Positions 127 through 64,000 of a stretch of DNA of 64,000 nucleotides are shown here, one piece after another. The notes under the pieces were generated by a model. It was given only the letters and a program-made list of their open reading frames with translations. It was not told the DNA's origin and did not search any database. The stretch comes from Tribonema minus (taxonomy: Eukaryota; Sar; Xanthophyceae; Tribonematales; Tribonemataceae). The translations under genes and the position numbers were made by a program. Each line of letters starts with the position of its first letter. Within the stretch, counting starts at the first letter, position 1. The stretch is taken from positions 310,001 through 374,000 of the forward strand of contig JAFCMP010000520.1 in assembly GCA_017506865.1 (NCBI GenBank), in the 5' to 3' direction.

Positions 127-3100
127 CTTGCCCCAGTACTCTTCGGGCAGTCCTCCCGGGTGATCAACATAATCCAAGGGAGCGACCTCCGGGGCGATTT
201 CGGAGTCCTGCGGCGTGCAGCGCGGTGGCATGGCTCAGTTGTGTCAGCGCACGTCAGCGCACAGATCTGATGCTGAGCACTGCACCATTGCGGCGCGAAA
301 CTGCGACAGCACGGAGCGACCTCCATTATGAGAATTTTGCAAAGCAGCGCAATTGCATCGCTCTAAAGGCTATGGTAGCGTGTGTCAGCGTTCAAACATG
401 ACGCTGCGGACCATACAAACAGCGACGCCGAATACTGAGACGTGCGGCGTGAGCATGGTAGCAAACAGGGCCCGTCAGTGCTCAGCCAAAGGAGCAGTGC
501 CTAAATAAAAAAAAGTGGTGCACGAGCATGTGAACCGTCTGGTGGAGGCAGGCGCGCTGGCTGGGTTGGGTCCTCACCCAGACTCTTGATTCCATGAGTG
601 AGCGCTGCTGTCGTCTGCTGAGCGTGCAGGCAGTCTCGTCAGAAGGGATCATTGGGCTGCATGAGTCGCAATGGCATCTGAGCCAATCATATTGGCGTTG
701 ATGATGATGGTAGTGATTGACGCGTTGTTGAACCTGACTAAGGGGCAGCATTCCACTACTTCAACTCCACATTTGCTGACTTCAACTTTGTAAATGCGGC
801 ACCGCTGACTCACCTGGCTCTCCACCAGCACGACCTCGCCCGGGGAGTCCCCTGTAGTGGAGGACGCAAGGCGCAAAAAGTGGGGGTTGCGTCAGCGGGA
901 TGACAACCCAAATGGCGACTATGTGCCCAAATTACAGCCGTCACTCAGCAAAAATCATGATTTAGAAATATGCAGAAAGTAGTGAACGGTGAGTCCCATA
1001 CTGCAGAGCACTGCCACGTGTTAGCAGGTACATACCACGTTACATAAGCGCGACGCCATGTTCTTATTGCCATAGTTGAGGTGCTATGAACCATGCTGGA
1101 GAGTTTAGTAGAGCAGGGTGGTGCACGCGTAGCCTCAGCCGCAGCCCTAGCCCGATTGCCTGCATCTAGGTGTCACTGTCGCTGCGATTGCCGCTAGATG
1201 TTTCTTGATCATAGGTGGCTCAGCGAATGCCCTCGCATGCACGGCGCATTGAGGCACGTGGATTCGACAAGTTAGTAAACCAAAGGGGCTCCGGGCTTAT
1301 GCGCGGACTCTTACGGTGCCAGCGACAAGACCTCATGCGTCAGAGGGACGTCCACGCGAACGGAAGGTGCCATCATGAACCCGCACTTCGCTGCCCCCGT
1401 GGGCACTGCATACTGTGAATGCGGTCGTGCGCGATGGGTCAGTGCCATTATCCCCATGCGCTCGCCGTGCCTGAGCACATGCCGTAATCATGTCCTGCTG
1501 AGCGCAGCTGCGCCTGTAGAGGTGACGCATGTAGCCAATTGACACTTCAAGCGTGATCCACGTATCCAGCTCCATGGCGACCAGGTGTGTCGCCCTACGT
1601 ACCGCTAGCCCAAAATGCAACAAAACCTGCCAGAAAAATTTGTTTTACTAAAAAAATTTCGAAGCAGCATTTATACTGTGTTCTGATGGGTGCTTGCCTG
1701 GCATGGTGGTCGCAATGTCGTCGGGGATGAAGGTCTCAAATGGGCCGGGGTGCATCTGCGAGGCGCCGGACAATAAACACACAGCACAAAATGCACGTAA
1801 AAAACAACATCATACTTTGCAGTACTGTATGCGTTCGCGTCAGATGCCGTGGCTAGGCTCAAACGGCGTGACCGCAAAGCACGCACGTCAGCAGCATCCC
1901 CCACAAGCACAAAATAGAAAATGCCCCTCCTCCCCCCCTCCCCCCTGCGCTGTCAACCAGCATTCAATAGCATAAGATTTTGGGTCTTGATCTGTAGCGC
2001 TCGTTGGTTATGAATGTTGAACCGTGCAATAAACCTAGACTACACTTTATTGTACTCTTTGCGATTATTGCAACAAGAGTTTTTTTTGTTGCACGAGGCT
2101 GGTTTGAATATCCTATTAGGAGTGATACCAATTTTTTTCACTCTTCCAATTAAAATAGCTGTAAAAACGGAAAAATAATGTTTGAAATCAAATACTTCAA
2201 AAATCCAACGAAAATTCATGATCAAGCCAGAACGGAAAATGAAACAATGCATTTGCCCTCAAAATGCTATCAAGACAACACATAAAAGCATGTTTGAAGA
2301 ACACGATAACACAAGAAAAATCTTTGTGAACGAACTGAAAGTGCAAATACGTGCTGAAGCAGGATCTATCGATAGACATTTGCAGCCCCCAAAACCAAAG
2401 TTGTTCTTCAGGTCACGACTTATTTGATTTTTAAAGATAACACAGACAATTTCTTTTTTTGGAGTTCACTTTTGTTTACAAACAGATGCTCAACTGGAGA
2501 ACAGAAAAAAACCAATAATCTACTATGACAAGTTTGACTCTTTGATCCGTATCTTCAGAAAAGTGAGCAAAAAACGATAATCTAAGAGAGTGGCTACCTT
2601 TGCCTTGTACATGCATGCTATATTGTAGACTAGATCACCATTTTAAAAAACTTTGTGTTCATGACGATACCTGATCTAAACTTTTCATAGTGTGAAAAGA
2701 TTCATAAATACCTACATACCCAGCTAGCTCACCTTGACGTCGGCGTCCTCCCTGCGGCGCTGGCCGGGCTCCACGCGGCGCGCAAAGCGCTCGGCAAGGC
2801 GGCACCACTTCTCAAATGTGTGCGTGTAGCCCTTGACACAACCCTGCAGGGGGGTGGGTGGGGATTTGGGGGGGGGGTTAAAGCACTGATTGAGTGTCCG
2901 TGCGAAACAAACAATCCATAGCAACGGGTTTTGAGCAGCGCGCGACGCGGCGGCAACACTTCTTTAACGCGTGCATGTAGCCCTTAACGCTGCCCTGCCG
3001 GGCTCTGAAACCATGGTGTGTCAGCGCTCACATTATGGGTTGGTGGATGATAGACGTGCGTCGCGCTACGCAAGGCAGCACTACGTACTTCATAAATGTG

Positions 3101-6100
3101 TGCAGGTTTGCCCTGGTCGAAGTTTGCGGAGGGCCATCTGCAGTTTGTACAGAAAGATACAACACACACGGTATAAGCTCAGGTGATGTTTATGAAGAGT
3201 CTTCATCAAAGACGCCTGTTGCGCAGTTGTTTCAGTTACATGTGGCAACAGCACTCACAAACGCTAATGCACTACTTGTGCAGCATGAGCAGTGCTTGCG
3301 ATGGAGAGCGCGGTGGCTAGGCTGGTGGGCACACACTCAACTGTGCGCAGGCGTCTATGCTGCATCACTTATGCTCATGTACCGCGGTCACTTACTGCTG
3401 CTGCTGTACGGAAGGGTCACATCAGCTACATATGCGCATGTTGGCAGTGCTGACCGTAGAAAGCGCGTTACTAGGCGCACGAAGGTGCATGCCGCCGGTG
3501 CGCCCCAGGGCAGCAGCAACTACAGCAATTGCCATTACCATCGCCTGTTGCCGCGACGTCAAAGTTTTGAAAAAGCTGCGTTCAAACCTCTTCCTGTTGC
3601 ACACTGCATGGTGGCAGCGCTCACCACGGAGAGTGCGGCGGCAAGGTCGCTGGGCGTGCGGAAGTGCACGCCGCAGTGCAGCAGCAGCTACATGCTACCA
3701 TTATTACCAAGTGCTGCTGCTCTACAAGTATGTTCCCTAAAATGTGTATGGATCACTTCAAATCCAACCTTGCAGGCGTGTCTGCAGTGCTCACCACGGA
3801 GAGCGCGGCGGCAAGGTCGCTGGGCGCACGGAAGTGCACGCCGCAGTGCAGCTACAGCTACACTTGCCACCATAGCCGCCAAGTGCTGCTGTTCTATAAG
3901 TATGTTCCATGAAAATATATGAAGTAGTTGAAGTCCTAAGACTCAGAAACACTTTGAAGTATGCACAGCACGTCAGCAATGCTTACCACGGAGAGCGCAG
4001 CGGCGAGGTCGCTCGGCGCGCGAAAGTGCACGCCGCAGTGCAGGCGCACCGTCGTGCCGAAGCCGTCGAAGGACACGGCCCACTTGGCGATCACGCGGAA
4101 CCTGCGGTGGACACATGTGTGCAATGTCAAATGAAAATGAAATGAAGAGCCGGCAGTGAACCAGTCATCAATGGTGAGTACGGAAGACAAATGTATCGCA
4201 GCAAACTGAGTCTAAGGCTGCATAGAAAACATTCCAGAGAGAAGCAGCAGCGCACACTGCACGGACATGGTGTGCTGGCAGATTGAACGACACGGCCCAC
4301 TTGGCGATCCCGCGGAACCTGCGACGAGTGCGCACGCGCTTTGTCCGTGGAGCCAGGGCCGAAGATAGCAGTTGTTCACGTTGACCAATAAGAACGTCAC
4401 AGAAAACTCGGGCAAAAGGCTGCATACGATGAAACGTGTGAGTGCAATTTTAACATGAGTCACAGACGAGTCAGCAAAAGGTTGACATACATGTCCCTGG
4501 GTAAGCATATACGCACCGGAGCGAATTGATACTTTGGGGTCCCAAAGTGGTGCCGAAGCGGTGGTGGTGGAGAGGTCCTATGACAGGCAACTTGAGCAAA
4601 ATACACTGTTGAAATTCTGATGACTCACTTGTCGCCATCGACCAGATCGCGGAGGGCGCGGCGGACTTCAAGTGTTGCTCCCCCAAGCCTGCACGAGGAG
4701 GGAGGGCAGCACGTACACTTTTGTCATGTTATGCGACAGTAGCAACACTGGCAAAGGTGACACACTATAACAATCATTGCTACTGCAAGTACTTTTGTGC
4801 AGGTCGATTGGATCAGTGCTGGTAGCTGGAAGAGCATCAGGCGCATGCACCTGGTAAGCCAACAACGTCTCTGACGGCTTGGGCCAGTGAGAAACAGTAT
4901 GCAGCGGTGGAGCTGAACAGCATTCTCCAGGCGAACACAAGTGTGCACCGAATGTCATAGAGTGGTTGCGTTGCCTGCTGTGCTATCCCTACAACGGGAC
5001 GCAGTAGGGCCATTTCTTCATGGAGAACATCTAAGCCAGTGGTCAGCAATAAAGTAGCAGTGACCAAGCAGGACCAGAACTTTGGTAGCTACTAATGCGG
5101 TTGAAGTTGGCGTTGCCTTGTTGCTCCACCACACCTCAACATCATCAGCAGTGAATTCTGCCTATAACGTGGGATCCATGCGCACAATATTTAGACGCTT
5201 CACGTGGCATTCTTTGTCCTTCACATGCAAGTGTATCTGCAGCAACATCAGCTTCTCACTCTGGCGCAGGTACTGCTGAATGTTCTGTGCATTTTCACCA
5301 CGATGTTCTCAACACCACTATGCAAACGAGCTAGACTATGCCAGTCAACAAGTGCAAGACCACTGACCTGTTGGGCTTGGCGGTGAAGTGCTGCGCACAA
5401 TGACGCGGGTGCACGCAAGCACGGGCAGCAGCAGAAGTGCACAAATGAGAGGCAGTTGTGGGTGTGCTGGGCTGCCCTCTTCCAGGTGCTTTAAGGCAGT
5501 CAATGGCGCACCTACCAGTTCAGAAAGCCAGATTCACGGCGCACCTTGACCGGTCACTGGGCAAAGACACTGACGATGCAAACAAGTCACACATATGCCA
5601 TGGCAATGCCCGGCAGCATGATGTGCGAAGCTGGCAAAACCCGCTTGTAGCAGCGCTCAGGTAAGAAGTGCGCTGTTACATCTGGGCCAACAACATTAAC
5701 CCACGTGACTCGCATTAAGTGAGTATACCTTGATGTGAGCATGAAAGAGCTGCAGCAGCCATCTCAATTCTCAGGGTCGCCACTTAGGGCAGCCACAGCG
5801 AGGGTCGGCAGCGCTGCTCATCTGGGGGTCTTGTGCAGAGGTTATCGTCCACGACGGTGCGTCTCTAGTTTTCACGGTCACGCGCAAGCAACCGCGGGCA
5901 TCAACGCGCGCACGAGCTCCTGAACGGAGCGCTACTGCGGCGATGCGTCCCAAAGTCTCGGCCTACCATCTGGCACTCATACTCATTACTCATCGGCACG
6001 TGCCGACCTGTGAATGTGAGCGTCGAGGTCTTGCGTCTCTCTTACCGCGTTCCTGACCGCAGCACTCATTTCGGGTGTAACATACAAGTAACACTAATAA

Positions 6101-9100
6101 ACCTTACCATAACCTCAATCCGGATTCCTGACCTCACTCTTACCCCGTGACCCCTATACCCTGTATGATACTGTTCGGCTTCTTGCTCCTCCTCGACGCG
6201 CGTGAAGCTCCTGCAAATGTCCGCGCCCTTTTTCTGAATTGACTCTGAATTTCCCCGATATCCAGACAAACTACACCTGGAAGAACCTACCCCTCCAAAC
6301 CTAGCCCTAAACCTGATGTCAACCCTGACTCAAACCCTACTGCTGGGCGTACCTGCTCCTCCTCGACGCGCGTGAAAGCGCCTGCCGTTGTCTGCGCCCC
6401 ACACCAGCCTATTCTATACCGGGTATTCTGCTCGTCCCAAACCTAGCCCTAACCCTGATGTCAACCCTAATTCTAACCCTACTGCTGGGCAATTGCTCCT
6501 ACCCGACGTGCATGAAGCGCCTGCGATCGTCTGCGCACTCCATGTATTCCTGACTCTAACCCCTGAAATACCAACGTACCCCAGACCTGGCAGAACCTGC
6601 TCGTCCCAGCCCTAGCCCTAACCCTATTTCTAACCCTTACGGTACTTTGAAGTATGCTCTTTCTGGCATACCTGCTCCTCCTCGACGCGCGTGAAGCTCC
6701 GACGGTCATCTGCGCCCTCGTCAGACGTCGGCGCGCCGCGCACGGCGCTCTTGAAGTGCACGCGCCGCACCAGCCCCGCATACTGCATATGCGCAAGACA
6801 CGTCACGTGTCGTGTGGCGATGTCAATCAGAAGTAATTGTCAATGAGCATGAGCAACCTCGTGAATGTAGACTCTAGATATAGCCAGCCTGTATACTTTG
6901 ATGATAGGCTTTTCGTGCCCTGGAGCAAGAAGTTCAAATTCAACATACAATGCACATTCGGTTTCGCGACAAGATCTCAAGTCTCAGGCTCCTCTGATGG
7001 TTGACTTAAACCGATGGCATGTGACATGGCGGAAGTTGCACACCAAAGTGGCTGGCGGCAGCCGCATGCACCATGCTCTTCAGGTGCATGTGAGGCACCA
7101 TCCCCGCTTACTGCACATGCATACAATGCCGTCGCTTGTAGCGAAAGGATGCCATGACGTCATCAATATCCGATTCAACACAAATGCTAGCATCTAGGCA
7201 TATCCGACAACACCATCAATCCTCGCAAAATTGTGTCATGGCGCTGGTTGCATCCGCTCCAGCGCGACGCATGCAGCAAGATTCGAGCTGTGCAAGGCTG
7301 CGGTCTGCAGCAGCGGCAGTGCCAGCGCATGCGAGCGTGTCCAGCACTCGGCGCGCAGCTTGGTAGTTACAAAGGTCGAATAGTCGCAGACCATGCGAGC
7401 GCAGCCCCTTGTGTTGCAAAGCCAGCATCCCGCTCATGATAATGATAACTTTGACACCTGCAGGCGATAGCCCAGTGAAGCTCACATGGGACAGTCAACC
7501 TTCAACTGGCTAAACATCATGCTCACATGTCCTGCAGTACGCTGCAGCGATCATGCGTGTCACTCTTTCGATAAGACTTCAACTCAGTCAAAGTTCAACA
7601 ACGACTTCATCTCGAAGTGCAGCGTGACGCTCACCTGCTGATAGCCATCCTCCTGCCAGGGCTCCTCCCTCACGTCCCTGCTCCGCCGCAATGAGCAGCA
7701 GTGCACGAACCATCCGGCGTACACCATGATCAGCAGCACCAGCAGCAGCATCAGCAGCAGCCACAAATCCGTCGCCAGCAGCACCACCAGTGGCAGAAGG
7801 CAGGAAAATCCAGGCAGTGGTGACAGCGGTGATAGCACGCGCACGAACAGGAGCGGAGTGCATTAGCTTACGTGCAGGAACGCGACTTTAACATTGACTT
7901 AACTTGAATGCGGCCTGTAGCAATATGATGGTCGGCGTGGGAACTGCTGGCTGTGGCACCTGCAGTGCTAACATCGAGATGTTCATCTCAGTTCAAGGCC
8001 GCACTCAAGTTGAACAAATTGAGCACCAACATGGACCGTAGTATCAAAGATGAGAGTTGTGGAAATTGTCCCAATCGCGCAGCTTCACTGCGTTTTGGCA
8101 GCAGTATGATTTCAGGCTGCAGTGCGCGCTGACTCCGGCAGTGGGGCAGAAATAACCACTTTTTTGCTGCCGCTCGCCGCTGCGTCAGCGGCAGTATAGG
8201 ATGCGTTGCGCACTGCAGCGTTGCGCACTGCAATGGCAACAAATCCATGCCAGGGGACTACCAGAAGACTACGTCATCGACGTAGTCTTCAAGCAGACAT
8301 TATGGGACAGTGGTGAACAGAATCACGCCGTGCGATGCATTTCATTTAGATGACTGCTGTCAAGGTAATAAAAAAATTTAATTAAAAGTAGTCATGCCAT
8401 AAAGTATATATGTTTTTGGCATACTCCTGCATGTTTTATATGGGCCAGAAATATGAGGCCCAGCGTAAGTAGTCTACAGAACCGTCAGAGGCGGCCGCGT
8501 GTAGCCCGAGAGTCGAGAGTCGGCACCATTGCAGTCATTGACAGTGTGACGGCACCCACCGAACGGCCAACAGCCGCTGCAGCAGCAGCTGCACCAGCAA
8601 TTGTCATGTTCAAAATCCAGAGGTGACAAAGAGAGTACGTAGAAGCCAACTGTTTGCAGTCTGAGTACGCTGCACTGCAGCCGGTTTACATTGACTGGTG
8701 ACAGTCGCCACGATGGTGGCAGAGTTGCGGCTGCGTGGATGATGATATGAGTTGCTCATCAAAATGCAGTGCACACGCTCAGCCACCGCATAATGCATTG
8801 CTGCGAGCATTTCTTCAGCTGCACATATGAGCTGAGATGCTCAAGTCTTGCTGCCATGGCACTGAGAATTCCACAGCGAGCGTGGTGGGTTGCTACATCA
8901 TGTCGGCGTTTGCTGGGTGCAACCTCGAAACTCTCATCACAATCTCAGAGCGCAGACAACCTGTGATGCAGGATCTAGCACCTGCCATCCCACGCACGAC
9001 GTACAACCGTGATGAACACGGGCGGCAAATTGTCTCAATAGTTTGAAGTTGTGAAATCTCATCTCGTGCTGACAAAGAAGCTCAGCCGTAGCGAAGCACA

Positions 9101-17050: not shown

Positions 17051-17351
17051 GCGATAGCCACCATAACGATATCGACCGAGTGCATACTTCCGGCCACTGC
17101 GCGCTGCGCACTGGCACGGCGGCGGCCGCCGCTTTACCTTGTGCGTGCACCATTGACTCGCGTGGCAGAGCCAGACGGAGTGCTTTGGATTCCCAACGCC
17201 GTCCGCATGCGGCGCAGCGTCACTGCGCCGCATGCTGTGCGCTGCGTGAGGCGCACCTCCAAGCTGCGCTGCCTAGTCTCAAGGTCTCGGAAGTTGAAGT
17301 TCTCCGAGGCACTGCGCAAAGCTTTGCAAAGGCACTCTCTGCGGTGTAAGG

Positions 17352-20531: not shown

Positions 20532-23500
20532 TCAATCGTACCCCAGCTTGATGCGCGCCCAGATCGGCCCCGCGTCGTCTGCGTTCATGAGGTGCGACAG
20601 CTGGTTCGCGAGCGGGCGCGCGCTGTACCACACAAAGTCCGCCAGGGGGCGCCCATCATAGAGGTCCTCCGCGAGTCCCAGCGCGAGGCGTAGGTACGTG
20701 GTGCCCGACAGCGTGTCCGCCGCGGTGGGATTGAGGAGCACGGCGCGCACGCCCAGCGCGCCGCCGAGCGAGCGCGCGATTCGCTCCGCGCGCCCGCTGC
20801 TGCCGAAGCCAAACTTGACGCGGTCGAGGTCCTGCGGAGTGTACGTGGGCAGGGCATGGGGGGGGGGGGGAGGGGGGCGTTAGGGGTTGCCCCTGAGCCT
20901 GCGCAGCAAGAATTATAATAATATGATTTTATTATTGGGGGAGCAGCCTTGACGACGAGCACGCGGCCTTTGACGATCGCGCGCTGCGCTGGCAGGGCAG
21001 CAGCCACCAGCCGTCAATGTCAATTCTTATGCATGAACAATTCATTGTGCGGGGGCGCAAGACAGGGTGCTGAGGGTCAGCAGTGCCGTCGGCATGCGTG
21101 CAGATGCCGAATACGCCGATCAGCACCCCTGCGCGCTGTGCACTGGGCACTGCGTGCCACGCGCGTTGCGCTGCTGACGCTGACACTGGTGCGCTGAGCG
21201 CGTGCGGCGAGCGATGGCTGGAGGCCGCTCCCGTGGGCTGGGCACCCTAAATGTAGGAGCGTCGTCCCCCCACAGACCTGTAAAACCACCATCAAGTGGC
21301 CTACGGGCGCGCCGCGATGAACGCCACTGGCTGACACGACAGCGCTGGCCACTCTTAGCCCTCACCTAACAAATGGTCTCGTGGCATGTAATGACAGCCT
21401 CTACCCCCTGACCCTAACCCTCACCCTAACTCCTAGAAGCGTCGCCGCCCACTTGCCTGTAAAACCACCAGTGTTGTCCGCGGGCGCCGCCGCGATGGCG
21501 TTCGCGAGAGCGCTAGCTCCTCCTGCCTCTACCCCAACCAATTAGTCGTCATGATAAAGGTCGACAGTGCCAGGTACCTCTACCCCTACCCCTAACCCTA
21601 ACCGTAGGAGTGTACCCCCCCCCCCCCCCCCCCTACTTGCCTGCACCACCACCATCGTGCTGCCCGCGGGCGCCGCCGTGACGGCCTCTGCGGGCTGAGA
21701 CAACAGCGCCACCTACCCTTCACGCTAAACCCCACCGAAGAGTCTTCATAATACTTCTCTAGGTCAACAGCGCGTGGTGTTTGTACCCCAACCCTCATTT
21801 CAAGTAGAAGTAGTAGTCAGGCCCCCCACACACCTGCAGCACCACCATCGTGCTGCCCGCGGGCGCTGCAGTAATGGCCTCTACGGCGGCGCTCGCGACC
21901 GCCTCGTCGCGCAGGATGCGCGCCGCAAAGTAGTTGGCCTTGGACGGCGGCTCCGCGCCGAACGCGCCGCGCGCGACGCCGTCCGCGTACGCAGGGAAGA
22001 TCACCTCGTCCGCGTACGCGCGGTAGCCGGTCTGCCGCGCAAACTCGATGAACCTGGGGGTAGAGACATGTATGATAAAGCAGATATGGGGGGGGGGGGG
22101 TCAAGACTTCATCGGCGAACTGCGCGTCGCAGCGCAAGCGGTATAGCTGAATATTGGGGGAGAGGGGGGGGGGTGGGGCACAGCGTTGTCGGCGTATGCA
22201 GAAGCTGGTCTGCTGCCCCAGCTTGAAGTTGGGATTGCGGCACATGCAGTCAACGGCACGGGAGGAAAAGGGGCGGAGACACATTGCTCAAGGCGTAACA
22301 CCTGCGGGCCTGCGAGCACATGCAGTCAAGCGGGGGGACGGCGTGACAGGTCGCTGATAAAGTCGCCTGCATTCGCACAGAGCCTGGGGGGCTGCACAAT
22401 CCCAGCCCTTACCCTGCTGCACGGACGCGATGACCCTGGGACCGCGGCGCATGCCGCCAGGCAGGCCTGGGGAGGTGGCGGCACGCGCCTGGCAATGCCT
22501 AGCTCCCGTGCACACTCAACAACAAACTGCAATCGCAAACGTTCACCTCACCAGTTTTTGAAATGTCACAGCCGACCAGCAGTTCTGTACACGCGACCAC
22601 CACGCGGCGCGTCCGACTCCCGGCATCGCCGCCGCACCCTCCGTCACACTCACCCCTTGAGGTCGATCACGTACTGGTTCCGCTCGTCGGCGCTCAGGCC
22701 CTCGAGCCCCGCCGCCGCGACGCGCGCAAGCGCGCCCGCGTCCGGCGCCAGCGCAACGAGCGCCACGCCGCCGCCGCCGCGCGCGCGCGCCGCGCGCAGC
22801 GCCGGCAGGCACCCCTCGAAGGCCCCCTCCGCCCAGCCGCCGCTGTCGCGCAGCTGCAACTCCGCGGCGGCGGCGTCGCTCGCGGCGAGGTACGCGTCGA
22901 GCGCGGGCTGTAGGCGCTGCTGCACGTCCGCGAGGCCCAGAAGAAGCTTGCCCTTGCCCTGTGGGGGGGCGGGGGGGGGGGGGGAGTGCGAATGAGGGGG
23001 GAGGGGAAGGGGCGCGTGCGCGCGCAGCGGCGCCGCGCGCGCGGAGTCTCTGGCATTGTACTGAGCGCTGCCGCGGTGGCATAGCTGTGTGAATGCGTCA
23101 ATGATTTGTGGTGCTCTGCGCATGGGCGTACTACGGAGGACACTGCCTTCGGGCTGACGTGTGCTACGGGGTTTGAGTGTGAATGGTGAGCAATTGCAGT
23201 TTTGCGGCTTCGCAAATGTCATGAGCCAGATGTCTCAAGGTGAATAGGCAGCGCTTGGAGCGCAGCGCGGATGCATGACTGCCGTGTCCTCAGAGGAGGG
23301 CGCTGAGCGCGGTACGTGTGCCTGTTGCCGCTGCAAAGTGGTCACTGCGGTGACCTGCAGCCACACGGATTCGCACCACACTTGGCAAGAAGGTCTGCAA
23401 CGCATTCCGGATTATTGTCATTGAAGCAGACAATGATTGCCACGAACAGCATGCCGAGAGTTGAAATCGCGCAGCATGCAATGATGCGCGCGCCGTCAGC

Positions 23501-24320: not shown

Positions 24321-27300
24321 TCACGAGAAGAGCGCCTTGACCACGAACGACGCGTTCAGCCGCCGCAGGTGGCTGTACTTCTGGCCCGTGCCCACAAACA
24401 CGATCGGCTGCCCCGTGTGGTAGCACATGCTCAGCGCGGCGCCCACTTTCAGGTCCACCGTGTCAAATTTAGTAAGTATAATGCCATCGATCTGGCGCGT
24501 GTTCGCCGCGCCGGCGGCGCTCGCGCTCGCCAGCGCCTCGTTGAACATGGCCACCTGGTCGATGCCGTCGTTGCCGACGAGCGCCTCGCCGACAAAGAGG
24601 CACAGGTCGGGCGCGTTGTCCGCGACGAGGCGCCCGAGCGCCGTCATGAGCGGCTTGTTGTTCTGCATGCGCCCCTGCGCTTGCGCGCGCAGCGCGGCGG
24701 CGGCAGCAGCGGCGGCGGCGGCAGCGGCGGCGGCAGCAGCAGCGGTGGCGGCACGACAGCGGCAGAAGGAACGCAAGTGAGAAGGAGGTGCGCGTGCCGC
24801 CGTCATGTTTGTGCACAACGGGAGCGTTTGGGGAGCGTGTGTACGCTCGGTACAGCGAGGCCACGCAAGGGAGCGGAGTCCTTGTGCTGGTTCCTGCGCG
24901 CGCAGGGGATGCGTGGTCATGCGACCGCTCGCCGGCGTGTCGATGAGCGCGCGTGGCGCCGCGCTCGCGCGTGCATGCGGCGAATACCCGCAGCGACCCG
25001 AGAGATGCGACATCGGCGCGCACCGCTCGCGCACGGAAGCCCACACGACACGAGGATGGCGCCTGCTGGCACACGCGTTGCGACTCACCGCCGTGTCGAT
25101 GAGCACGCACTCGTGGCGCTGCTCGCGCGCGTGGCGCAGCGCCGCGGCGGCATCACGACCCGAGAGATGCGGCATCGCCCAGCACCGTACACTGCTAACA
25201 CGCGCACCGCTAACGCACGCAAGCCCCCACATAACATGTCCATGCCAGAGAGCGCATTCGCAATTGCACTCACCGCCGTGTCGATGAGGACGCACTCGTG
25301 GCGCTGCTCGCGCGCGTGGCGCAGCGCCGCGGCGGCGACGGCAGACGGGTCCTTGGCGTAGCCCATCTCGAAGAGCGGGACGCCGAGGCAGCGCGCGTGC
25401 ACGCGCAGCTGCTCCACGGCGCCGCTGCGGTACGTGTCGCACGCGGCGAGCATCACGTCCACGCCGCTGGTCTTGAGGTAGTAGGCGACCTTGGCGAGCG
25501 ACGTCGACTTGCCGACGCCGTTGATGCCCACGAAGACGGCGCTGTAGACGGTGCCGGCGTCGCGCGCCGCGAGCACCGCGCGCAGCAGGTCCGTGGATCT
25601 GCGGCGGCGGCGGCAGCGGCGGCGGCAGCGGCGGCGGCAGCGGCGGCGGCGGCGGCGCGGTCAGGCAACTGCGGCACGCGCACAGGACAGTTCGGGGTAC
25701 TGCAGGTAGGGCTGCGGGCGCCCTCTGAGCGTATACTACACATACACAGTCGGCTCAGTGTAGACGGCACCGGCGTCGCGCGCCGCGAGCACCGCGCGCA
25801 GCAGGTCTGTGGATCTGCGTCGGGCGGCAGCGGCGCGTGCAGTCTGGCAGTGTTGAGGTGTGCCGGCTCAAGAGGGTTCAACTTCCCAGGGCTGCTGCGC
25901 CTTTTGCCAAGTCACTGCACATGATAATAGAGACGGCGCCGGCGTCGTGCGCCGCGAGCATTGCGCGCAGCAGGTCCGTGGATCTGCGGCAGCGGCGGCG
26001 CGCGCAGCCTCGCAGTGTTAAGTTGTGCCGGCTCGAGAGCGTTCAGGGTGCTACAGGTAAAAGTCGGCAGGGCTGCAGCACCCTTTACTGGCATATACGT
26101 TGCACAGTCACAGCACATGCTGCTGTAGGCGGCGCCGGCGTCGCGTGCCGCGAGCACCGCGCGCAGCAGGTCCGTGGATCTGCGTCCGGCGGCGTCGGCG
26201 GCAGCGCGGTCAAGCGACGTATGGCACGCGTACGGGAGAGCACAGGGCACTGCCGGTACAGCTTCCGAGACGCCCTCTGAGCATCCGTTTGATGTTGCAC
26301 CGTCACAGCACATGCTACTGTAGACGGCGCCGGCGTCGCGCGCTGCGAGCACGCGCTGCCCAAACAAGAGAATGCCACGCGCTCGCGAGACGCACCAGTA
26401 CGATCCATCCATGCTTGGAGCGAAACCATCGCACAGCGCACGGGGAGCGCGCGCGGGCGCGGCGGCCACCAGCGGTGACGGCTCAGTCTAATCAACAGGT
26501 GCGATGTTTTTAGGCGACGGAGCGTCTCACACTGCTATCGGCTGCACGTGCAATGAGACGGCGCGCTCACTGTGCACTCACTTTTGCGGCATGAGGATGC
26601 GCATGATGGCCTCCTTCAGCGCCGCCTGCACCACCGTCTTCACCCTGAGAGGCAGGGCGGGGGGAGGGGCAGCGCACAGCACATGGCAGCAGCGATGATC
26701 AGCAATATGAATGTGTTGTTGCGCGTGAGCGCCGCTGACTGCGAGAGTGCGGCGCGCAGCCTGGAAACCGCCGCCGATCTTGGCAACTAGTGGGCCTGAG
26801 GCGAAAGCACATGTGGCGCTTCGGCCGCCGCTGCGAGACAGCCCTTGGCGGCCAGCGGCTGCGCAGGAGTGGATAGGAGCGTCACAATGCAGCTGAGCGG
26901 TGGGCACAAGCGCGCAAGCACGCGCAGCTGCCGCGGCGTGCACTTTTAGCCGCAACCCTGCGTGACCGCACTCTCAGCGCAGGGCGGGGTATCAGGTATT
27001 ACAACGCAACGACAATACGACGCACGTCGCTGATCGGGATGCACAGCTACACAAGATGGGAGTGCCACAAACCAGCTGAGCGGTGAGCACAAGCGCGCAA
27101 GGGCCCGCAGCTGTTGCGCCGTGCACTTCACATGCCACCAACTGAGACAGCCACCCTCTCAGCGCGGATCGGCTATGAGGTACAAATGGTCGGGCAAAGC
27201 AACATGCGACGCTTGTCGTGCAGCACTGGACAATGCTGCACAAACTGCAATGCGAGCACGCAATTCAGGCAGCACGCGAAACGGCTGGTCAGCACACGAG

Positions 27301-30189
27301 ACCGGGCTGATCAGCATGCAACACAGGCTGGTCAGCAAGCTGGGGTGGTACGTATGGTTGCGGCACTCGCGCACATGCGGTGAAGCGCCACACCGCCCCG
27401 CACGCCTACGCTCTGAGCACGTGAACAGTGTACACACAGCGTACATATGTGGGTAAAACGCTCACGAACCTCGTGAACGACACGCGCTTCTGGTCGTGCA
27501 GCGATGCGCCGACGGACCGTCAACCTATGTCGGCGACCTCTGCATGTACTTATATTTCATGGTATGGCACTCGCGTGGCTACAGAACGCGCCGCCCCGCA
27601 CGCCCTCGCTCTGAGCACGTGAACACACAGGGCACGTACTTCTATGCGGGCACAACACTCACGAACCTTGTGATCGACGCGCCCTTCTGACCTGAAGCGA
27701 TGGACTACTCTGCACGACCTGCACCCTGCGCACGCAACTCGGGGCCGTCAGCAGGCACGACACATGGTGCTACGTCCGGTCGCGGCACTCGCCTGGTGAA
27801 CGACGCGCGCTTCTGTTCGCGCAGCGACGCTCCGACGGAGCGGCAGATCTCGTCCGAGACCTCCGCATGCATATATGGTGTATGGTGCTCGCGTGATTAC
27901 TTCAAGGCGCCGCGGGATGCCCGGGGTCCAACAACGCCGCGTAACCTGCACCATCGGCGCAGAATGGGGCGGGCGCTCACCTCGTGAACGACGCGCGCTT
28001 CTGGTCGCGCAGCGACGCGCCGACGGACCGGCAGATCTCGTCCGCGACCTCCGCGGCGACGTTCCTATCCATCAGCCGCCGCCGCATGTCATCCAGCGCC
28101 GGCGCCAAATCCCCCTCGCTCAGCGCGCCCCCCCCCACCAGCGCCGACACCGCGCCCCCCAGCCACGTCCCGCGCCACCCCCCGCGCGCCGCCGCCGCCG
28201 CCGCGAGCACGGACGCCGCCGCGCCGTTGCCATCGTCGTCGCCATCGTCGCTGTCGCTGTCGTTTTCCGCCCACTGCGGCGTCTCGCCGTCTTCGGGGAC
28301 GTACGTGGCGGCGTCGCGCTGGAAGGCCGCCTCCTCGGCCGCCGCGGCGGCGCCGCCGTCGTCCTCTTTCTGCGCGCGCCGCAGCGGTGCGGGGGGACGG
28401 CGTTTGATGGTGAGGGGAGGGGTGGGCGCGGAGTCGATGCCGCAGAGATGTCGGTGTCCTTGGGTTGGGGTCAGGGTTAGGTGAAGAATGGACTTTGGGT
28501 TGGGGTCAGGCAAATGGACGCTTCCGCGTGAGGCGATCGTGCATGCGAACCGTGAGGCGCATGCCGCGGCCTCTGCGCCGCGCCCCCTGCTGGCGGCGAG
28601 GGCGCGACGAAGCGACCGCTGCAGCGCGCGCTCCAAGCCCTGACCCCACTCCCCGCCCTCACCCCTCCCCTACTGCTCCCACCACAGGAGGCGAGAGCGA
28701 CTGTCTACGCGCGACAACCCGACGGCGGCAGCGCTCCGCTCACCCGCGACCGGTCCAGCGCCGCCAGCTGCCGCCCCGTGGCGCGCCCGCCGCCCTTCGT
28801 CGGCGCCGCCATGCGCTTGCGCGACGCCTCCTCCGGCGCCGGTGTTGAAGTAGGCGTATTAGTGGGCGCCGCACTGCCGCCGGACGCGCGCCGCCGCCCG
28901 CCCTTATTGCCCGCGCGCGCCGCCAGCCGCGCGCGCGCCGCCTCCATCGCCGCCGCGTCGAGCGCACCGCCGCCGGTACTTGGTGCCGCTGCCGCTGCCG
29001 CAGCGTCTTCTTCGGCGGCAGCGTCCTGATGCCGGGCGGGGGCGGATGTGGTAGGGCGGGGTTACGTTGAATGTGCGCGTGGTTTGAGAACGGTGTCGTA
29101 GCTCAGCAGGGGGCTTCACGCGGCAACGCAGGCGGTTGCAGGTGCTGGGAGCCTGCGCCGGCTCCGCCTGCTGCCGCGCCGCGCCGCTGCGGCGCGATGC
29201 CGCACGTCAGCACTCCGCCTCGCAATCGCCGCAACTTGATGACGTCCACATACGTCACATGCAGTTGCGTACAGCAAATAAGCGGGGTGTAAGCGCTGCG
29301 CGCAGCCCTGGCACACACACACCTGCACGTCATCGCCGGCTTCCTCCTGCTGCGCAGGATGTTGCGCGCTGCGCTGCGGCCTGACATCGCGCGGAGGCGC
29401 CGGCGCTCCCTCCGCCTCCCTCAGCAGCTTGTCAAATTGCCGGTCAAAGTCCAGCTTCTCCGCGGCTGGCTGCCGCAGCTGAGAGCCGTAGCGCACCGTG
29501 AAGTCCTGCGAGAATAAAGTGATGTTGAAGTTGAAGTTTGTGCATGCGTGACAGCAGTTGCGTCACATGCTGCAGCACGCAGCAGATGAGGACTGCGAGG
29601 GTAGCGCTGCCAACACCACAACACCAAAAACATGCCATTGCACACAGTGCTTACGAGTGCAACCCATCTGTCGTAACACTTCAGCTGCTGTTTGGGCCAA
29701 CTACCTATACCTGCTGCTGGGTTTCAGCGCCAACACTCGCGAATTTCAGCTCTTTTTGGCAATCAGCAGCTAAGCCAGTGTTGCAGACGCAATGCAGAGC
29801 TCACAGCGGCGTCTGGAGGCGCCAGGTAACACACAGTGCCTTTGTGATCGAATCCACGTGTACGACACGTTGCAAGCGTACTTGAGAGTGGCGTTGCGTC
29901 GAGAGTCAATGCAAAATCAGCTCCTCACCCGCTTAATTTTGGCGAGCAGTCCCTCCACATACTGCAACGGCAGCACCTTCTGGTACACCGCCACCACCAC
30001 CAGGCCGAAGTCGTTGGCGAGAGACCATCGTACGGCGTAGTTGTCGTGCAGGAAGACGGAGCCGCCCGCTTTGCCCTCCAGCAGCACAGTGTGTATCAAC
30101 GCGTTGACGGGAGCTCCTTTAAGAGGTGTCAGCGTCCGCGACCACAACACCACTCCAGATGTGCTGAAGACCGCCACGTGATCTAGCAT
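24321..30189 (-). CDS. SRPRA: Signal recognition particle receptor subunit alpha (docking protein)
   Basis: Seven exons: 30189-29929, 29505-29323, 29025-28744, 28369-27981, 26644-26582, 25598-25274 and 24674-24321. All junction phases agree and give 618 aa, close to the usual length of about 640. Exon 1 encodes the SRX (longin-like) domain that binds SRP receptor beta ([20 protein letters not shown]). Exons 2-3 are a charged, low-complexity linker. Exons 4-5 are the N domain. Exon 6 holds GINGVGKS (P-loop, residues 417-424) and [15 protein letters not shown]. Exon 7 completes DTAGRMQ (499-505), then TKFD (569-572) and GTGQ (596-599). The protein is a GTPase at the ER that receives SRP with ribosome-nascent chains. 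The exon 4 start could shift slightly. It is divergent with eL13. Confidence 0.95.
24920..25160 (-). repeat. Two echoes of SRP receptor exon 6 3' edge
   Basis: The exon 6 end (reading HECVLIDTA plus donor) is copied at about 25084-25150 and more weakly at 24920-24980, inside intron 6. The nearer copy keeps the donor gtgagt and an almost intact core, tcgatgagcacgcactcgtg. Confidence 0.8.
25764..26365 (-). repeat. Four echoes of SRP receptor exon 6 5' edge
   Basis: Here the acceptor side is repeated: cag followed by the [15 protein letters not shown] coding start. The block ccgtggatct at 25591 recurs at 25807, 25976 and 26172. A fourth copy is recognised by gcgccggcgt at 26327 against 26132. 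Offsets are 216, 169, 196 and 195 bases. The copies together make up most of intron 5 next to exon 6. Confidence 0.85.
26890..27135 (-). repeat. Tandem intronic repeat, about 180-bp period
   Basis: A block that includes caagcgcgcaag and cgtgcactt occurs at about 26893-26945 and 27075-27133 in intron 4 of the SRP receptor gene. No exon match was found for it. Confidence 0.55.
27470..27872 (-). repeat. Echoes of SRP receptor exon 4 3' edge
   Basis: The exon 4 end (plus-strand core tcgtgaacgacgcgcgcttc at 27981) recurs at about 27796-27872, 27655-27700 (short) and 27470-27545. The outer two keep much of the 70-base coding edge. They lie in intron 4 downstream of the exon. Confidence 0.85.
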
Positions 30190-40206: not shown

Positions 40207-43200
40207 ATGATGGTGACCGCGTCCACGCGCTTTATCTATTGTCCGTCTGCCCTGTCGACTCCCTATACAGTCCTGGTGCTGGTCCTGATGATGACACTGG
40301 CGGACCACAAGAGAGGTGCAGCGAACAAATCAAAGGATGCCTCGAAGGCCGAGCCAACCCCGGCCGCTGATACTGTGCTGACCGACTTGATCAACCAAGC
40401 AAACACAACAGGTGCGTCGACCAGTTGCTGAGATTTGCCTTGGCAGTGCAAGTACGGTCGTAGAATTCACGATTGCTATCGATTGAGCTGTTTTTTTCAA
40501 ATTTACTGTGTGAGCATACATTACCATGAGAGTGGGTAGCCCCAACCCTAGCCCTGACCCAAGGTGGAGTACCAGCACTGAAACTGCCGCCTGCTCTGTG
40601 AGGCATAATGTTGCCCTGTCCCAATTTTGATGAGCAGGCTGTCAAGCTGACCGAGCCCTTGTGCCTACACTGTACCGCAAGCGGTGGAATTGGCAACACT
40701 GCCTCTCCAACAGTCAATTTGAAGGTGGCAGTGATAGTCCTGCGCTGCTGAGCCTTTGTTGGTTCAAGCACGTGAGTCCATGAGCATGCGCCTCAGCTGT
40801 GACCAGGCACAAGACGGCCTGCAGTAGCAGTCGACATTACCCCCCTGGCATTCCCAGTTGGGCACATCCTCATTGTCGTGTTCCGTTCGAAAGCTCACAC
40901 AGAGTGTCTGTCTGGCGCAGAGCAGCACTTTCATGAGCAACGCGACTGACGCTGCACTGCGGTCATGCAGGCTGGGATGCCTGCTGCTGCAGTCCCCTCT
41001 CTATCCGCTAGGCAGCGACTTGTACGCTTTCATCCACAGCTGTGCCGCTATGTCACGCTCGCTGGCATCACCCCCCATCTCTCCCCCTGCTATGCAGTGT
41101 TCCGAATCACTTTCACAGCGAGATTGCGAATCAACACCAAATGCTTTTGCAGTACACACTCTCAGGTGTGCAGGTTTGCTGTCGCGTCACGTGCGCGTCA
41201 TGCCCCCCTCGGTGCCCCCTCTGCAGATGCCTCCAAGGAGATCTCTGCGCTGAAGGTCATGGGCTATGAGGCAGGCATCATAGAGCTAGAGAAACACATG
41301 TGGTGTCAGTTTTAGGAATACAGGTGTGCTGTCGCATCACACGCATTATGCCCCCCCCCACCCCCCCACCCCTCCCGTGCCCCCTCTGCAGATGCCTCCA
41401 AGGAGATATCCGCGCTGCAGGCCATGGGCTACGAGGTCAGCGCCAGAGAGCAGGAGGACACCACGTGGCGTCTTCTGATCACGCTGACCGGGCCCGGCAG
41501 GGGCGGCGAGAGCATCGAGATTGCCTGGCAGGAGCGGGTGAGGCAACGCAGAGCACGCAGGCCGATTGCGCGACAAAGATTACTTCAACTACCACGACTG
41601 CTGTGCACAAGCGCACTTGAAGCACCACGACTGCAGGATTGCGCGCACACTTCAGAGGCAGAGAAGCGCGCAGGCAGTGTATGTAGGTTAGGGTTAGCAC
41701 TACGGTAACCCCCCTCTCTGCTTGTGCGTGCCGAACGGGACAGCTTTGAATGTGTGAGGCAGTACACTGGCAGTACACTGTACATACCGGCTGCTCAGGC
41801 TGGCTCTGTGTGTGTCGGTCCTTTATTTCCTTCTGATTGCGGGGCGGAACCCCCATCATAATGCAAGATGTGCAGCGCTTGTGATCGTGTCAAGCGTATG
41901 CTCACACGCATTTGTGAACGCAGCTGAGCACATGCGCTACATACACCAACTAAATGTCGGTACTAGATTGAAGTAGGTTGGGGTCAGACTGTAAGAAGAG
42001 GAGTGGAATTTGTGACAATGCTCCTGCAAACGCCCGTCTTCAATCCGCACTCTGGTTGATGTTCATCTTTGAGTTTGGGTTGCTGCATGGATGCAAGCAT
42101 AATTTGTGTACTTCATGTAAACAGGGGCTCGGACCTGAATGACCAGTACACTATGCTTTTCAGACACAAACAGTGCAAAGTGCCACACAGTAATGCGCTG
42201 CGCTAGTTCCAGCTAACGTCTGCTGTGCCGTGAGACAGGGGCTGTTACCCCTAACTCTTAATTTATTCAGTACAGACCTTCATGGCTGGCAACCGCAAGC
42301 AGCAGCAAGGCGTAAAACTTTTTAGCAAGAAGTTACAGGTGTCAATAACGATTAGCATGAAGTATCTGCCATGGCAGAATATGGTATCGAGTCAGGATGG
42401 CAGAACATGGCTAAATAGCCCGCATAACCCTATGGTCGCCTCACAACGCCTGTCAGCAAAGCAAACGCTCAGCTCTGTCTGACCTGCTTGCAGAATGAAG
42501 GTGATGCTCATTGGGTAGTCTTGTGCGTTCGTCTTTGCGCGTGTCACCACCGCCGCCCTGTTCCGGCCACGTTTTCTGGTTCATATGCTGCGCGTTGATA
42601 TGCTTGACGTTGCGTAACAGCCCGCACGAATTGCAAGAGTGTGGCTACGCACACGACAGAGACAGCAATGACGTTATGAACCGCTTCCGCTTGCCGGTGT
42701 TGTTATTTGTGCGCACCCTGATGCAGGGCTGCTACAATGCCAACCAGACAAGTGAGTCAGCAGGACGTGAGCTGAGCATTGCTGCTTGCAATGCGCTGTA
42801 CTCTGACCCGCTCGTGAAACTCCAATTCGTCTATTGGTCTCGTGCTATGCCCAGATAATGTTGCTAGAAGCGTTTTGTGAACGATGTCAGAATACAAGCT
42901 GCAGCCACATGTGGTACCGAAAAGTACCAAAAACATTCAAGGCAACTGATGCATGTTGCAGGACCCCATTCCTTCACGTACACCCCAGGATGCACGACTC
43001 TGTCAACCTCGGCAGCAGTGCTCGACTGCATGCCAGCGTGATGATGATGTATTACCTCAATGTGTGCGACCCTTACCAGCTGCGTGCACTATAACGGGCC
43101 CCCGCTTTCCACAGATATCAGAGGCTGTTGTCAAGTGTCGTGAAAGCAGGGGGCATGGGGGGGGGGTATCTGTGGTACCTGTCTACTTGTTGAAAATAAT

Positions 43201-55533: not shown

Positions 55534-55850
55534 CGTGTGCCAATGGCCAGCTGTGTGGTATAGGTGAACTGAACCATCACCATCACCTCACCCAGTTTAT
55601 TCTGCTCCCTCCCGGAGTTTATTCCTTTTCACCGAAAAAAAATAAATAAATGATGTTGAAGTACGGTGCACGGCACATGATGTGATGATCTTGTGCACCA
55701 GCACCAGCGTTCCACCTGCCTGCTGCTTGTCTGTACCGTGATTGCTAGCTCAACACGTTGCCACTGTGTATACGCAAATAATTCAGGGCAAGCTAGAGGG
55801 GCGAATACTGTGAAAGCTGTTTGATCTTTCAGCACAAGTACACAAGTCCG

Positions 55851-59806: not shown

Positions 59807-60060
59807 AAGTACACAAGTCCGTACGTACACAAGCCGTGTCATGACACACATGGCAGAACCAGGGGGGGGGGCACATGGAGGAGGACGTAGGGGAGGATCC
59901 CGAGATGCCATTTGGCGGCGGCGGCGTTTGAGTGGTTGTCATTACGACACTTTCAGACTGTCAAACGACATGTAGATTCCGTACAGCTAGATGCCAATCA
60001 TCTGGGCTTTTTCGCGCCCTGAGCGAGAATTAAAAAAAAGTACACAAGCCTTTCATTTCT
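59807..60060 (+). mobile_element. Second copy of the LINE 3' end, in tandem
   Basis: From atggcagaaccagggggg (59850 region) through cacatggaggaggacgtagg, ggcggcggcgtttgagtggt and ctgggctttttcgcgcc to attaaaaaaaagtacacaag. It repeats 59615-59820 with few changes. It is a 5'-truncated insertion or a tandem duplication, and ends in a short A-run like the first copy. Confidence 0.85.
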
Positions 60061-61935: not shown

Positions 61936-61958
61936 GCTGCTGTTGCGAGAGGCGCGGC

Positions 61959-64000
61959 TTACGCGTCGGTGTTGGTGAGCGTCGCAATGAACTTCTTGCG
62001 CAGCTTCTCGAGCGCGTCGTCCGTGTCCTCGTCGTCGCCCTTCTGCTCCACCTTCTCCACCTCCTCGTACATCTGCGCGCGCGGACGAGTAGACCAAGGG
62101 TGTACGTCATCAGCGCTGCGGCTGCACGGCGAGCGCTGCACATGGGATTTCAATCATAGAACAGGTTCCATTTCATCAAAACCACTGCGCATGGAGACTT
62201 CCAACAGGGCCCATATCAACAGGTACAAAACAGGCTCTATTTAATCAAAACCTCGCTGCAAGTGTCCTGGTGCATCTGTGGGCAAGCACACACAGCACGG
62301 GGGCGCTTCGTCGGCGCTGCGCTTGCAGTACTGTGCATGTGGCGACTTCAACTGCGGCCACACAACGGGTGTTTGGCGGGCCCAAAAAACAAGGTTTGAG
62401 CGGTCTGCGCTGCATCCACGAAAATTGAAGTTATGCACGTCCGCTCCGTCAACGTGCTTGCGATGAAGTCCGCGAGGTAGCGCTGGATGAAGGAGGACGT
62501 TGCGTACTTCAACAGCAGACGCATGCGCCACCGCACCCTCTGAGCTGGCAGCAACCCAGCACGCAGACACGGATACGCGCATGTACATACCTTGAGAAGG
62601 TTCTGGCGCGCTCCGTGAGTGTGCTCAGAGACAAGTCCGGAAAGCAGAGCCGGATGAACGGGGACAGACACTACCTTGACAGGGACATGTGCACTTGGCC
62701 AACCGATGCAGCATCCGCAGCAACGCGTACGCACCTTGAAAAAATTCAGGCGCCGCTCCGTGAACGTGCTCGAGAAGAAGTGGGGGAGATAGCGCTAAAC
62801 AATAAAGAGGGTGTTTACCTACTTTAACAGGTGATGCACGCGCTCCAACACCCCCTCAGCTGGCAGCGACCGACGCGGTAAAAAAATCCGCACACACACG
62901 ATGCGTCTACGCACCTTGAGCAGGTTCTGGCGCCGCTCCGTGAATGTGCTCGGGAAGAAGTCGGGGAAGTAGCGCTGGATGAAGGAGAAGACGAGGACGT
63001 GCCCCACGGGGCTCAGCGGCAGGATGAGGATGATGATGGTGGGGATGAGCGTCAGCAGGTCCTTGCCGCTGCGGCGCAGCGTGCGCACCTCGCGCGGCTT
63101 GAGCGTGTAGCCCTGTATGGCCTTGCCGACGAGCGCGAGCGCGTACTGGATGTCCTGACCCAGGAGCTGCAGGGTTTGGCGGCGCGGGGGGGGGGGGGGG
63201 GGGGGGGGGGGGCATGGTCAGTAATTGGGGGGGGGGGGGGGGGGGGGGGGGGCATGGTCAGTACTTCTGCACTGTGCGTACTGGATGTCCTGGCCCAGGA
63301 GCTGTGCACAGTTTGGTGAGGAGGGCCGGGGGGGCGAGAGAGGGGAGAGAGGGAGGGGGAGAGGGGGTGAGAAAGGGGGAGGGGGGGGCTAGGCAGGAGG
63401 GGGAAGTGGAGTGTGAGTGAGCAACTTTGTCCCATAACTTGTCCATGTAAGAACATTGAAGACCACTGCGACCGTGGCTCAGGCTTGCGAAAGAGGTGGC
63501 TGTGCGTGTGAACTTTACAATAATGACTGCGTTTGGCACGCGCTGACAAAGGCAGCAAGCAGCGCTGCATTGGATGCTCGTACTATTCATACCATCACCA
63601 TCAGTGGAAGCGCTCACTGTAACAGCCGAGCTGTGCTGCGCAGCTTGTTGAGTGCCTCGTGTGCGCCGTCGCTGCAGACGCCGACGTTGTCACGACAGGC
63701 AGATGCGCAGGCTAAAAAGCACGCTGGCACAATCGCAGCCGCTTCGTGGGCTGCGCACCCGCACATGCAGAGAGCGTGTACGTACGTGAAAGATGTACCT
63801 TAAAGTGCACGTATATGCGATTGCGTTCCTTGGTCCCTGTGACGTAGAAGTCAAGTGCGATGCGCAGCTTCTCGAGTCTGCACTATTTAGAATACTTCTT
63901 AAAAGTGTGTACACATGGAGTGTACATCAACAGGGCCACGCACCTTGGTCCCCGTGACAGAAGTCGAGCGCGTTGCGCAGCTTCGCAACCGTCTGGCGCA
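61959..64000 (-). CDS. LETM1-family inner-membrane protein, 3' part (partial at right edge)
   Basis: Exons: about 64000-63945 (KLRNALDF.., donor gtgcgt), 63166-62915 (84 aa) and 62072-61959 (MYEEVEKVEQKGDDEDTDDA to LTNTDA, stop). The 84-aa exon is the LETM1 core: GYTLKPREVRTLRRSGKDLL, then a membrane-like TLIPTIIILILPLSPVGHV, then FIQRYFPDFFPSTFTERRQN. This is closest in style to plant/algal LETM1-like proteins. Such proteins act in mitochondrial (or plastid) K+/H+ balance and membrane shape. The C-terminus ends soon after the core, so the ribosome-binding and coiled-coil tail of animal LETM1 is largely absent. At the edge exon the frame is 2 nt short relative to its own echo at 63877-63799 (LRIALDFYVTGTK). 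Either there is an error or the exon edge is damaged. Confidence 0.8.
62425..62810 (-). repeat. Three echoes of the LETM1 core exon 3' edge
   Basis: The plus-strand block ctccgtgaatgtgctc, ending at 62941-62951 in the exon, recurs 180 bases away at 62761 (tgaacgtgct), then at 62616 and 62449. Offsets are 180, 145 and 167. Copies keep the donor side (gcaccttga) and about 80 coding bases. All lie in the intron before the terminal exon. Confidence 0.9.
63181..63320 (-). repeat. Long G runs and echo of the LETM1 exon acceptor side
   Basis: Two G runs (about 63186-63212 and 63228-63252) are C runs on the gene strand just upstream of the exon acceptor at 63167. actggatgtcctggcccagg at about 63280 is an echo of the exon start (63146-63165). 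Confidence 0.85.
63799..63877 (-). repeat. Echo exon of the LETM1-like gene, still open
   Basis: Acceptor-like tgcag, then 79 bases reading LEKLRIALDFYVTGTK and ten more residues, then donor gtacat. Its phase (2 in, 0 out) would splice correctly to the 63166 exon. It could be a usable alternative exon rather than a dead copy. Confidence 0.55.

Follow-up and report, generated by a model that had tools for sequence, protein, structure and literature searches.

Introns of several genes in a 64,000-base stretch of Tribonema minus DNA carry decaying direct copies of their own exon edges

Introduction

Intron growth is usually ascribed to transposons or to unspecified drift. This study concerns a stretch of 64,000 bases of Tribonema minus (Xanthophyceae) DNA, i.e., positions 310,001 to 374,000 of contig JAFCMP010000520.1 (hereafter the window; all coordinates are positions within it), in which the exon edges of several genes recur as direct copies, here referred to as echoes, in the adjoining introns. 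An earlier reading, made by a model from the letters alone (the sequence-only reading), had pointed to such copies in six genes, and their presence in this window is confirmed here.

Genes and echo-bearing introns in the window

The window has a G+C content of 57.4%, and its spliced genes mark it as eukaryotic. Pfam scans covered parts of the window only, and genes outside those parts carry no annotation. Among the names given by the sequence-only reading, eL13 (PF01294, with PDB eL13 alignments) and SRP receptor alpha (PF00448 and PF02881, with PDB matches) are clear, while the LETM1-like gene (PF07766, 25.3 bits) and the ChaN-domain gene (PF04187, 27.7 bits) lie exactly at their Pfam cut-offs. 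Two names stay unconfirmed, namely VASt (12.6 bits against a cut-off of 27) and p32, for which one exon of 48 amino acids was scanned in Pfam and no family exceeded its cut-off. The five exons of the gene called VASt-like, hereafter gene A, join into one open spliced frame.

The echoes and their sources are listed below. The copy continuous with the exon body was taken as the functional one (the master), and an array span runs from the junction to 60 nucleotides (nt) past the outermost echo.

33795..34010, plus strand: eL13 exon 4 (Pfam PF01294, PDB alignments), the last ~86 nt of which (33925-34010) are the master of a donor-side array
34011..35247, plus strand: eL13 intron 4, with donor-side echoes at 34099-34179, 34242-34327, 34426-34500 and 34684-34769, and a truncated one at 34926-34969
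35068-35093, plus strand: acceptor-side echo of exon 5 in eL13 intron 4, an intron with 86% of its length inside array spans
33286..33794, plus strand: eL13 intron 3, with one donor-side echo of exon 3 (33562-33592)
31361..32214, plus strand: eL13 intron 1 (GC donor), with two donor-side echoes of exon 1 (31427-31453, 31635-31662)
26645..27980, minus strand: SRP receptor alpha intron a, with donor-side echoes of the N-domain exon at 27866-27793, 27689-27667 and 27543-27470
27128-27055 and 26945-26872, minus strand: apparently intron-only duplication in SRP receptor alpha intron a (offset 183)
25599..26581, minus strand: SRP receptor alpha intron b, with acceptor-side echoes of the next exon at 26355-26317, 26179-26122, 25983-25931 and 25814-25759
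24675..25273, minus strand: SRP receptor alpha intron c, with donor-side echoes at 25151-25089 (62/63 identical to the exon) and 24978-24933
21278..21886, minus strand: ChaN-domain gene, exon 3 donor edge (21886-21834) and three donor-side echoes ending at 21641, 21457 and 21278
62441..63301, minus strand: LETM1-like region, exon 63166-62915, with donor-side echoes ending at 62735 and 62591 and a truncated one at 62495-62441
63301-63276, minus strand: acceptor-side echo of the LETM1-like exon (self-blastn and junction alignment)
2733..4688, minus strand: gene A exons V3-V5, with donor-side V4 echoes ending at 3795, 3625, 3455 and 3300
4318-4285 (of V4) and 2988-2937 (of V5), minus strand: acceptor-side echoes within the same gene A region, 2733..4688
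5391..7111, minus strand: region of gene A exon V1 (6782-6672), with donor-side echoes ending at 6493, 6353 and 6183 and an acceptor-side echo starting at 7110
41227..41538, plus strand: exon called p32-like A (41392-41538; no Pfam support for p32), with an acceptor-side echo from 41227

Exon edges recur in their own introns

A self-blastn of the window (E<=1e-3) returned 64 direct pairs at most 3 kb apart, part of them in open reading frames (ORFs) with ankyrin repeats. The edges of supported exons were compared by Smith-Waterman alignment, using 24 exon edges of up to 60 nt and 12 introns with supported exons on both sides; each edge was aligned with its own intron, with 200 dinucleotide shuffles of that intron, with its antisense strand, and with the introns of other genes (the acceptor of ChaN intron 1-2 was placed one base off). 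The 12 introns belong to eL13, SRP receptor alpha, the ChaN-domain gene and gene A, i.e., to four of the six genes flagged beforehand, and therefore form a biased sample whose share of echo-bearing introns says nothing on unflagged genes.

In the sense direction, 11 of the 24 edges scored higher against their own intron than against any of its 200 shuffles. Ten of them scored at least 38 and the eleventh 34, against none of 204 comparisons with other genes' introns (highest 32) and none on the antisense strand (highest 25). At least one echo was found in 9 of the 12 introns. Five further edges (both LETM1 edges, the ChaN exon 3 donor, the gene A V1 acceptor, and the acceptor of the exon called p32-like A) were chosen by eye or self-comparison for their visible copies and thus have no denominator; with them included, 34 aligned copies fall into nine donor-side and seven acceptor-side edge families, 16 in all, two truncated copies (34926-34969 and 62495-62441) being left outside the count. 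The splice site is retained in 30 of the 34 copies: 21 of 24 donor-side copies carry a donor dinucleotide (GT in 14, GC in 7), and 9 of 10 acceptor-side copies carry AG. Hence the claims of the sequence-only reading that exon edges of both kinds are repeated as direct copies in their own introns, nearly always with the splice site, hold in this window, and its proposed comparison of own-intron with other-intron similarity, run here for the 12 introns, came out in favour of the own intron.

The repeats had also been claimed to be gene-specific and no shared transposon, which the 204 cross-gene comparisons support. A mobile introner-like or other dispersed element as the maker of the repeats is accordingly highly improbable. 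Introners do build introns in algae and other eukaryotes and insert between nucleosomes (PMC9860276), but the unit seen here is specific to each gene: besides the cross-gene edge comparisons, only 1 of 1161 cross-family pairs of intron flanks scored at least 38.

Unit length and periodicity

In 15 of the 16 families (gene A V5 being excluded), the longest ungapped match reaches the splice site and takes in 26-86 nt of exon edge. The 34 spacings between successive junction copies range from 93 to 328 nt with a median of 177.5, and 25 of them fall within 140-200 nt; the 31 spacings below 250 nt have a mean of 171.3 and a standard deviation of 26.6. Array spans make up 50% of the 10,697 tested intron nt. 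In 14 of the 34 pairs of real junction and echo, the intron flank was copied along with the exon edge (above the 99% null level, with ~0.3 pairs expected), and in the other 20 it was not detectably so. Together with the pooled periodicity of masked introns given below, the 14 pairs show that sequence on both sides of the junction was copied as one block.

A preferred length is also visible once the exon-derived parts are removed. After masking of exon-derived and low-complexity sequence in the 12 introns plus five other stretches, together 12.95 kb of intron, 8-mer matches were 4.9 times as frequent at lags of 140-200 nt as at other lags (7-mers 3.4 times), with raised 8-mer bins at 300-319 and 480-499 as well. 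Inside visible arrays the 140-200 ratio was 3.8; elsewhere in the 12 introns it was 3.2, from 31 matches. Counted per intron with 7-mers, the largest contributions come from gene A intron 1-2, where 11 matches were expected and 61 observed, and from SRP receptor intron a, with 7 expected and 54 observed. As a separate observation, intron units of gene A (6150-6640) and the ChaN-domain gene (21250-21600) contain telomere-like TTAGGG / TAGGG runs.

It is a serious possibility, though short of a probable one, that tandem duplications of ~175 nt occur anywhere in introns and that mainly those at exon edges stay legible, since the exon master does not change. The intron flanks of the junctions pass the detection score in just 1 of 34 real-echo pairs and the exon parts in 27, so that the focus on exon edges is partly an effect of observability, as only the exon stays fixed as a yardstick. 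At least one clear case, at offset 183 in SRP receptor intron a, has this length and apparently involves intron sequence alone. Against such border-independent duplication, the masked 8-mer periodicity is absent from the three echo-less introns pooled (140-200 ratio 0.95, at 5 matches with little power), and 28.2 kb of other non-coding or unassigned sequence shows no 140-200 excess (8-mer ratio 0.69, 7-mer 0.90). A purely general process would predict this excess elsewhere too, and its absence suggests that the process does not simply act evenly across the genome. The one clearly raised bin of this other sequence beyond lag 60, at 220-239, fits a 231-nt duplication near 59.6-60.0 kb. The latter (59600-60048) is a recent tandem duplication, about 94% identical and outside the genes annotated here.

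Splice sites of the echoes

The donor consensus is MAG/GTRAGT, the slash marking the splice site. Judged by this textbook consensus, in eight of the nine donor families at least one echo has a donor that equals or surpasses the real one; counted singly, this is true of 15 of the 24 echo donors. The real donor of eL13 exon 1 (31361) is apparently a GC donor, AAG/GCAAGC; together with the 7 GC donors among the 24 echoes, this suggests that the genome may have many GC-AG introns. In two SRP receptor introns (25599-25660, 24690-24760), long GCC/GCT trinucleotide runs precede the real acceptor, and in intron b the echo acceptors have shorter runs than the real one. Splicing presumably skips the echo copies. 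If RNA shows this to be so, donor strength alone does not decide splicing here, and with the best echo donor at least as good as the real one in eight of nine families the arrays are natural tests of splice-site choice.

Substitutions in masters and echoes

All differences between copies and exons taken together are distributed 82/58/141 over the three codon positions, i.e., they are heavy in the third. For nine families with 24 of their 27 echoes (three echoes below 70% identity were dropped, and the seven single-echo families lie outside this analysis), the differences were split into those private to one echo and those at sites where at least two echoes share a non-exon base. Private changes are spread 42/33/47 over codon positions (chi-square p 0.28), and 42 of 121 are synonymous against 30% expected (p 0.23), whereas shared changes fall 4/1/19 with 20 of 24 synonymous; the two codon-position distributions differ (Fisher p 0.0003). 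Private changes are thus blind to codon position and shared ones fall mostly in third positions, from which it follows that the exon is the constrained master and that the echoes are dead snapshots of it of different ages, the shared changes being mostly those of the exon lineage after older echoes had split off. The third-position bias had been considered as a sign of selection on the echoes; this was rejected, as the split places the bias on the exon lineage, and the private changes show no coding constraint on the copies.

Echoes differ from the exon by 2% to 38%. The sequence-only reading had several copies losing similarity with distance, and such a trend is present but modest: nearer echoes are the more similar in 21 copy pairs and the less similar in 8, with 1 tie (permutation p 0.028, nine families). 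Taken together, the trend and the range of divergence indicate that the copies were made successively, largely from the same living exon edge. That they are artefacts of the assembly, for which no sign was found, is almost certainly wrong, given this divergence and a pattern that separates constrained from neutral changes.

Within 40 nt of the junction, identity to the sequence at the real junction amounts to 85.5% in the exon parts of echoes and 72.2% in their intron parts, at 1.3 and 8.2 gap openings per 100 nt, respectively; unrelated introns as a control gave 65% and 8.65. In a simulated two-fold neutral clock, where the exon is static and the intron moves, intron identity came to 72-73%, which fits the observed 72.2%. 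Raw identity between echoes (exon parts 80%, intron parts 58%; 5 of 8 families) had been considered as evidence of selection on echoes and was rejected, since this clock explains the substitutions, though not the indels.

These patterns bear on whether echoes may be functional, as alternative, mutually exclusive or decoy exons under selection, which is very unlikely. Such a function would fit the splice sites kept as GT/GC or AG in 30 of 34 copies, the seemingly better conservation of exon-derived parts, and the donor strength of the best echoes. On the other hand, the private changes are evenly spread over codon positions, some copies are truncated, frame-shifted or interrupted by stops, and the apparent conservation is what the neutral clock yields for substitutions, if not for indels.

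Probable growth of introns by junction-spanning duplication

Echo-bearing introns very probably grew by recurrent, near-neutral tandem duplication of mostly 140-200-nt units that straddle splice junctions. Local tandem duplication across exon/intron borders had already been proposed by the sequence-only reading, and for these genes it is the best reading, the copies being direct, local and gene-specific, with the intron flank co-copied in many of them, changes private to copies being neutral, and copies having arisen at different times from a constrained master. A segment of about one nucleosome repeat, consisting of 26-86 nt of exon edge and a remainder of intron, would be duplicated in tandem. 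Duplications inside an exon would alter the protein and be lost, whereas those across a junction would be tolerated provided that splicing kept to the edge continuous with the exon body. Each event would then add ~175 nt and a spare splice site to the intron; the one functional edge under selection, the master, would stay on the exon body, while the spare edge would be free to decay, and the intron would become a stack of dead exon-edge snapshots. As a possible route, a displaced or unprocessed lagging-strand flap may be re-joined one nucleosome away, or breaks may occur between nucleosomes, and later unequal exchange between exon edge and first echo may add units of similar length. In a cultured cell line, a FEN1 inhibitor caused duplications among other mutations (PMC12633238); no statement on a length of ~175 nt was seen there. 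A route via RNA or reverse splicing from AG/G-like exonic breakpoints was dropped, as by inspection the measured extents lack a consistent AG or AGGT.

Several observations weigh against recurrent junction-spanning duplication. No echo was found in three of the 12 tested introns (gene A intron 2-3, ChaN intron 1-2 and eL13 intron 2), and the missing periodicity in these introns and in the other sequence of the window, described above, counts here as well. Periodicity is weak or absent even in several echo-bearing introns, with 7-mer matches observed and expected of 0 and 2.7 in eL13 intron 3, 2 and 1.4 in gene A intron 3-4, 4 and 2.2 in eL13 intron 1, and 23 and 16.7 in eL13 intron 4. On average, the intron flanks of echoes stand just modestly above unrelated introns (72% against 65% identity, at about equal gap rates), and the two-fold clock predicts 2.3-3.9 gaps per 100 nt against the 8.2 seen; either intron parts have an excess of indels or exon parts have too few, for which fragile low-complexity introns, conversion of exon parts, or both are candidate causes. 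The closest relative is the exon for 12 of 24 echoes, another echo for 7, and tied for 5; some echoes may therefore derive from other copies or be mosaic. Lastly, it is by inference that one nucleosome repeat, or one Okazaki fragment, is taken to set the unit length.

The indels and the 7 echoes closest to another echo could also be read as the work of gene conversion or unequal exchange between exon edge and echoes, continually rewriting the exon parts of the copies, which is unlikely though not to be dismissed. Exon parts do have far fewer indels than intron parts, beyond what the neutral clock explains, but conversion is not needed to explain the substitutions, similarity falls with distance, and the copies differ in divergence.

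Going beyond the echo-bearing introns of the window, it may tentatively be suggested, with considerable doubt, that the introns of this lineage are largely written by recurrent junction-centred copying with a built-in length of about one nucleosome, each intron being a time-ordered fossil record of its own exon edge, and that splicing then has to pick among equally good and almost identical sites by exon continuity and not by site sequence.

Relation to known systems

The view of the sequence-only reading that no standard element class explains the copies was too strong, since mutations that duplicate exon and adjoining intron in tandem are already a recognised class. Being local, direct and gene-specific, the echoes fall under internal tandem gene duplication. 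In the potato RdRp gene, a tandem genomic duplication spans intron and exon (PMC4974935, which cites Gao and Lynch 2009 and Knowles and McLysaght 2006). Both cases involve local direct intron-exon duplication with splicing signals copied from the parental structure; the potato case, however, is a single event that gave one new intron in one gene, whereas in the window the copies lie inside introns, are repeated, affect several genes and have a preferred length, the protein being unchanged as far as homology shows.

The AGGT model of Rogers (1989), as described in PMC4974935, explains intron gain by exon duplication. It likewise invokes tandem duplication that leaves the encoded peptide unchanged, but there the duplicated exon sequence itself becomes the new intron, with a copied AGGT at either end, and the unit holds no intron beforehand. 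Many units in the window visibly carry intron sequence (flank co-copied in at least 14 of 34 pairs) and enlarge introns, and by inspection most exonic breakpoints lack AGGT, those near eL13 exon 4 and near the N exon of the SRP receptor being exceptions.

Introners resemble the echoes in building introns on a genomic scale and in their link to nucleosomes (PMC9860276). They place the same element in many unrelated introns, unlike the echoes, for which no sequence shared between genes was found here and the copies are those of the gene's own exon edge. The 90-bp exon/intron arrays of leucine-rich repeat genes in Tetrahymena (PMC6564038) share the within-gene spread of tandem exon-intron units at characteristic lengths; there the copied exons are coding, whereas the copies in the window look dead and are intronic.

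Titles and abstract openings among the literature matches listed describe no gene set in which most tested introns are built in this way at a preferred length. What is new here is that most tested introns of a gene set carry duplications of their own exon edges with a preferred length, the class of duplication itself being known. Arrays take up half of the tested intron sequence; they are attributed to a single mutational process of preferred length, which leaves copies that can be put in temporal order. As a dead copy adjoins its constrained source, arrays also separate neutral from selected change within one genome.

Other features of the window

A diverged paralogous gene pair in inverted orientation (45902-46076, plus strand, and 48670-48496, minus strand; 75% identity over 178 nt) was judged too distant for use in dating. 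Scans of SRP receptor, eL13, the reverse transcriptase ORF and an ankyrin ORF against viral contigs found no relatives, and a scan of genome contigs gave one match in a planctomycete metagenome-assembled genome at 35% identity, which was not useful. Beside one member of the inverted pair, at 47932-48513, lie direct repeats of 163-165 nt.

A reverse transcriptase ORF (PF00078) at 55797-57152 is followed at 57380-59230 by a long repeat-rich ORF with no Pfam match, and the whole looks retroelement-like. At 10430-18900, three ORFs with an 81-nt ankyrin-type repeat look like a local gene family; the two that were scanned both match ankyrin families, and one has a weak F-box match below the cut-off. 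Near-perfect palindromes and inverted repeats are clustered at 9930-10546, with TCTTATACGGCGTATAAGAAA-like units.

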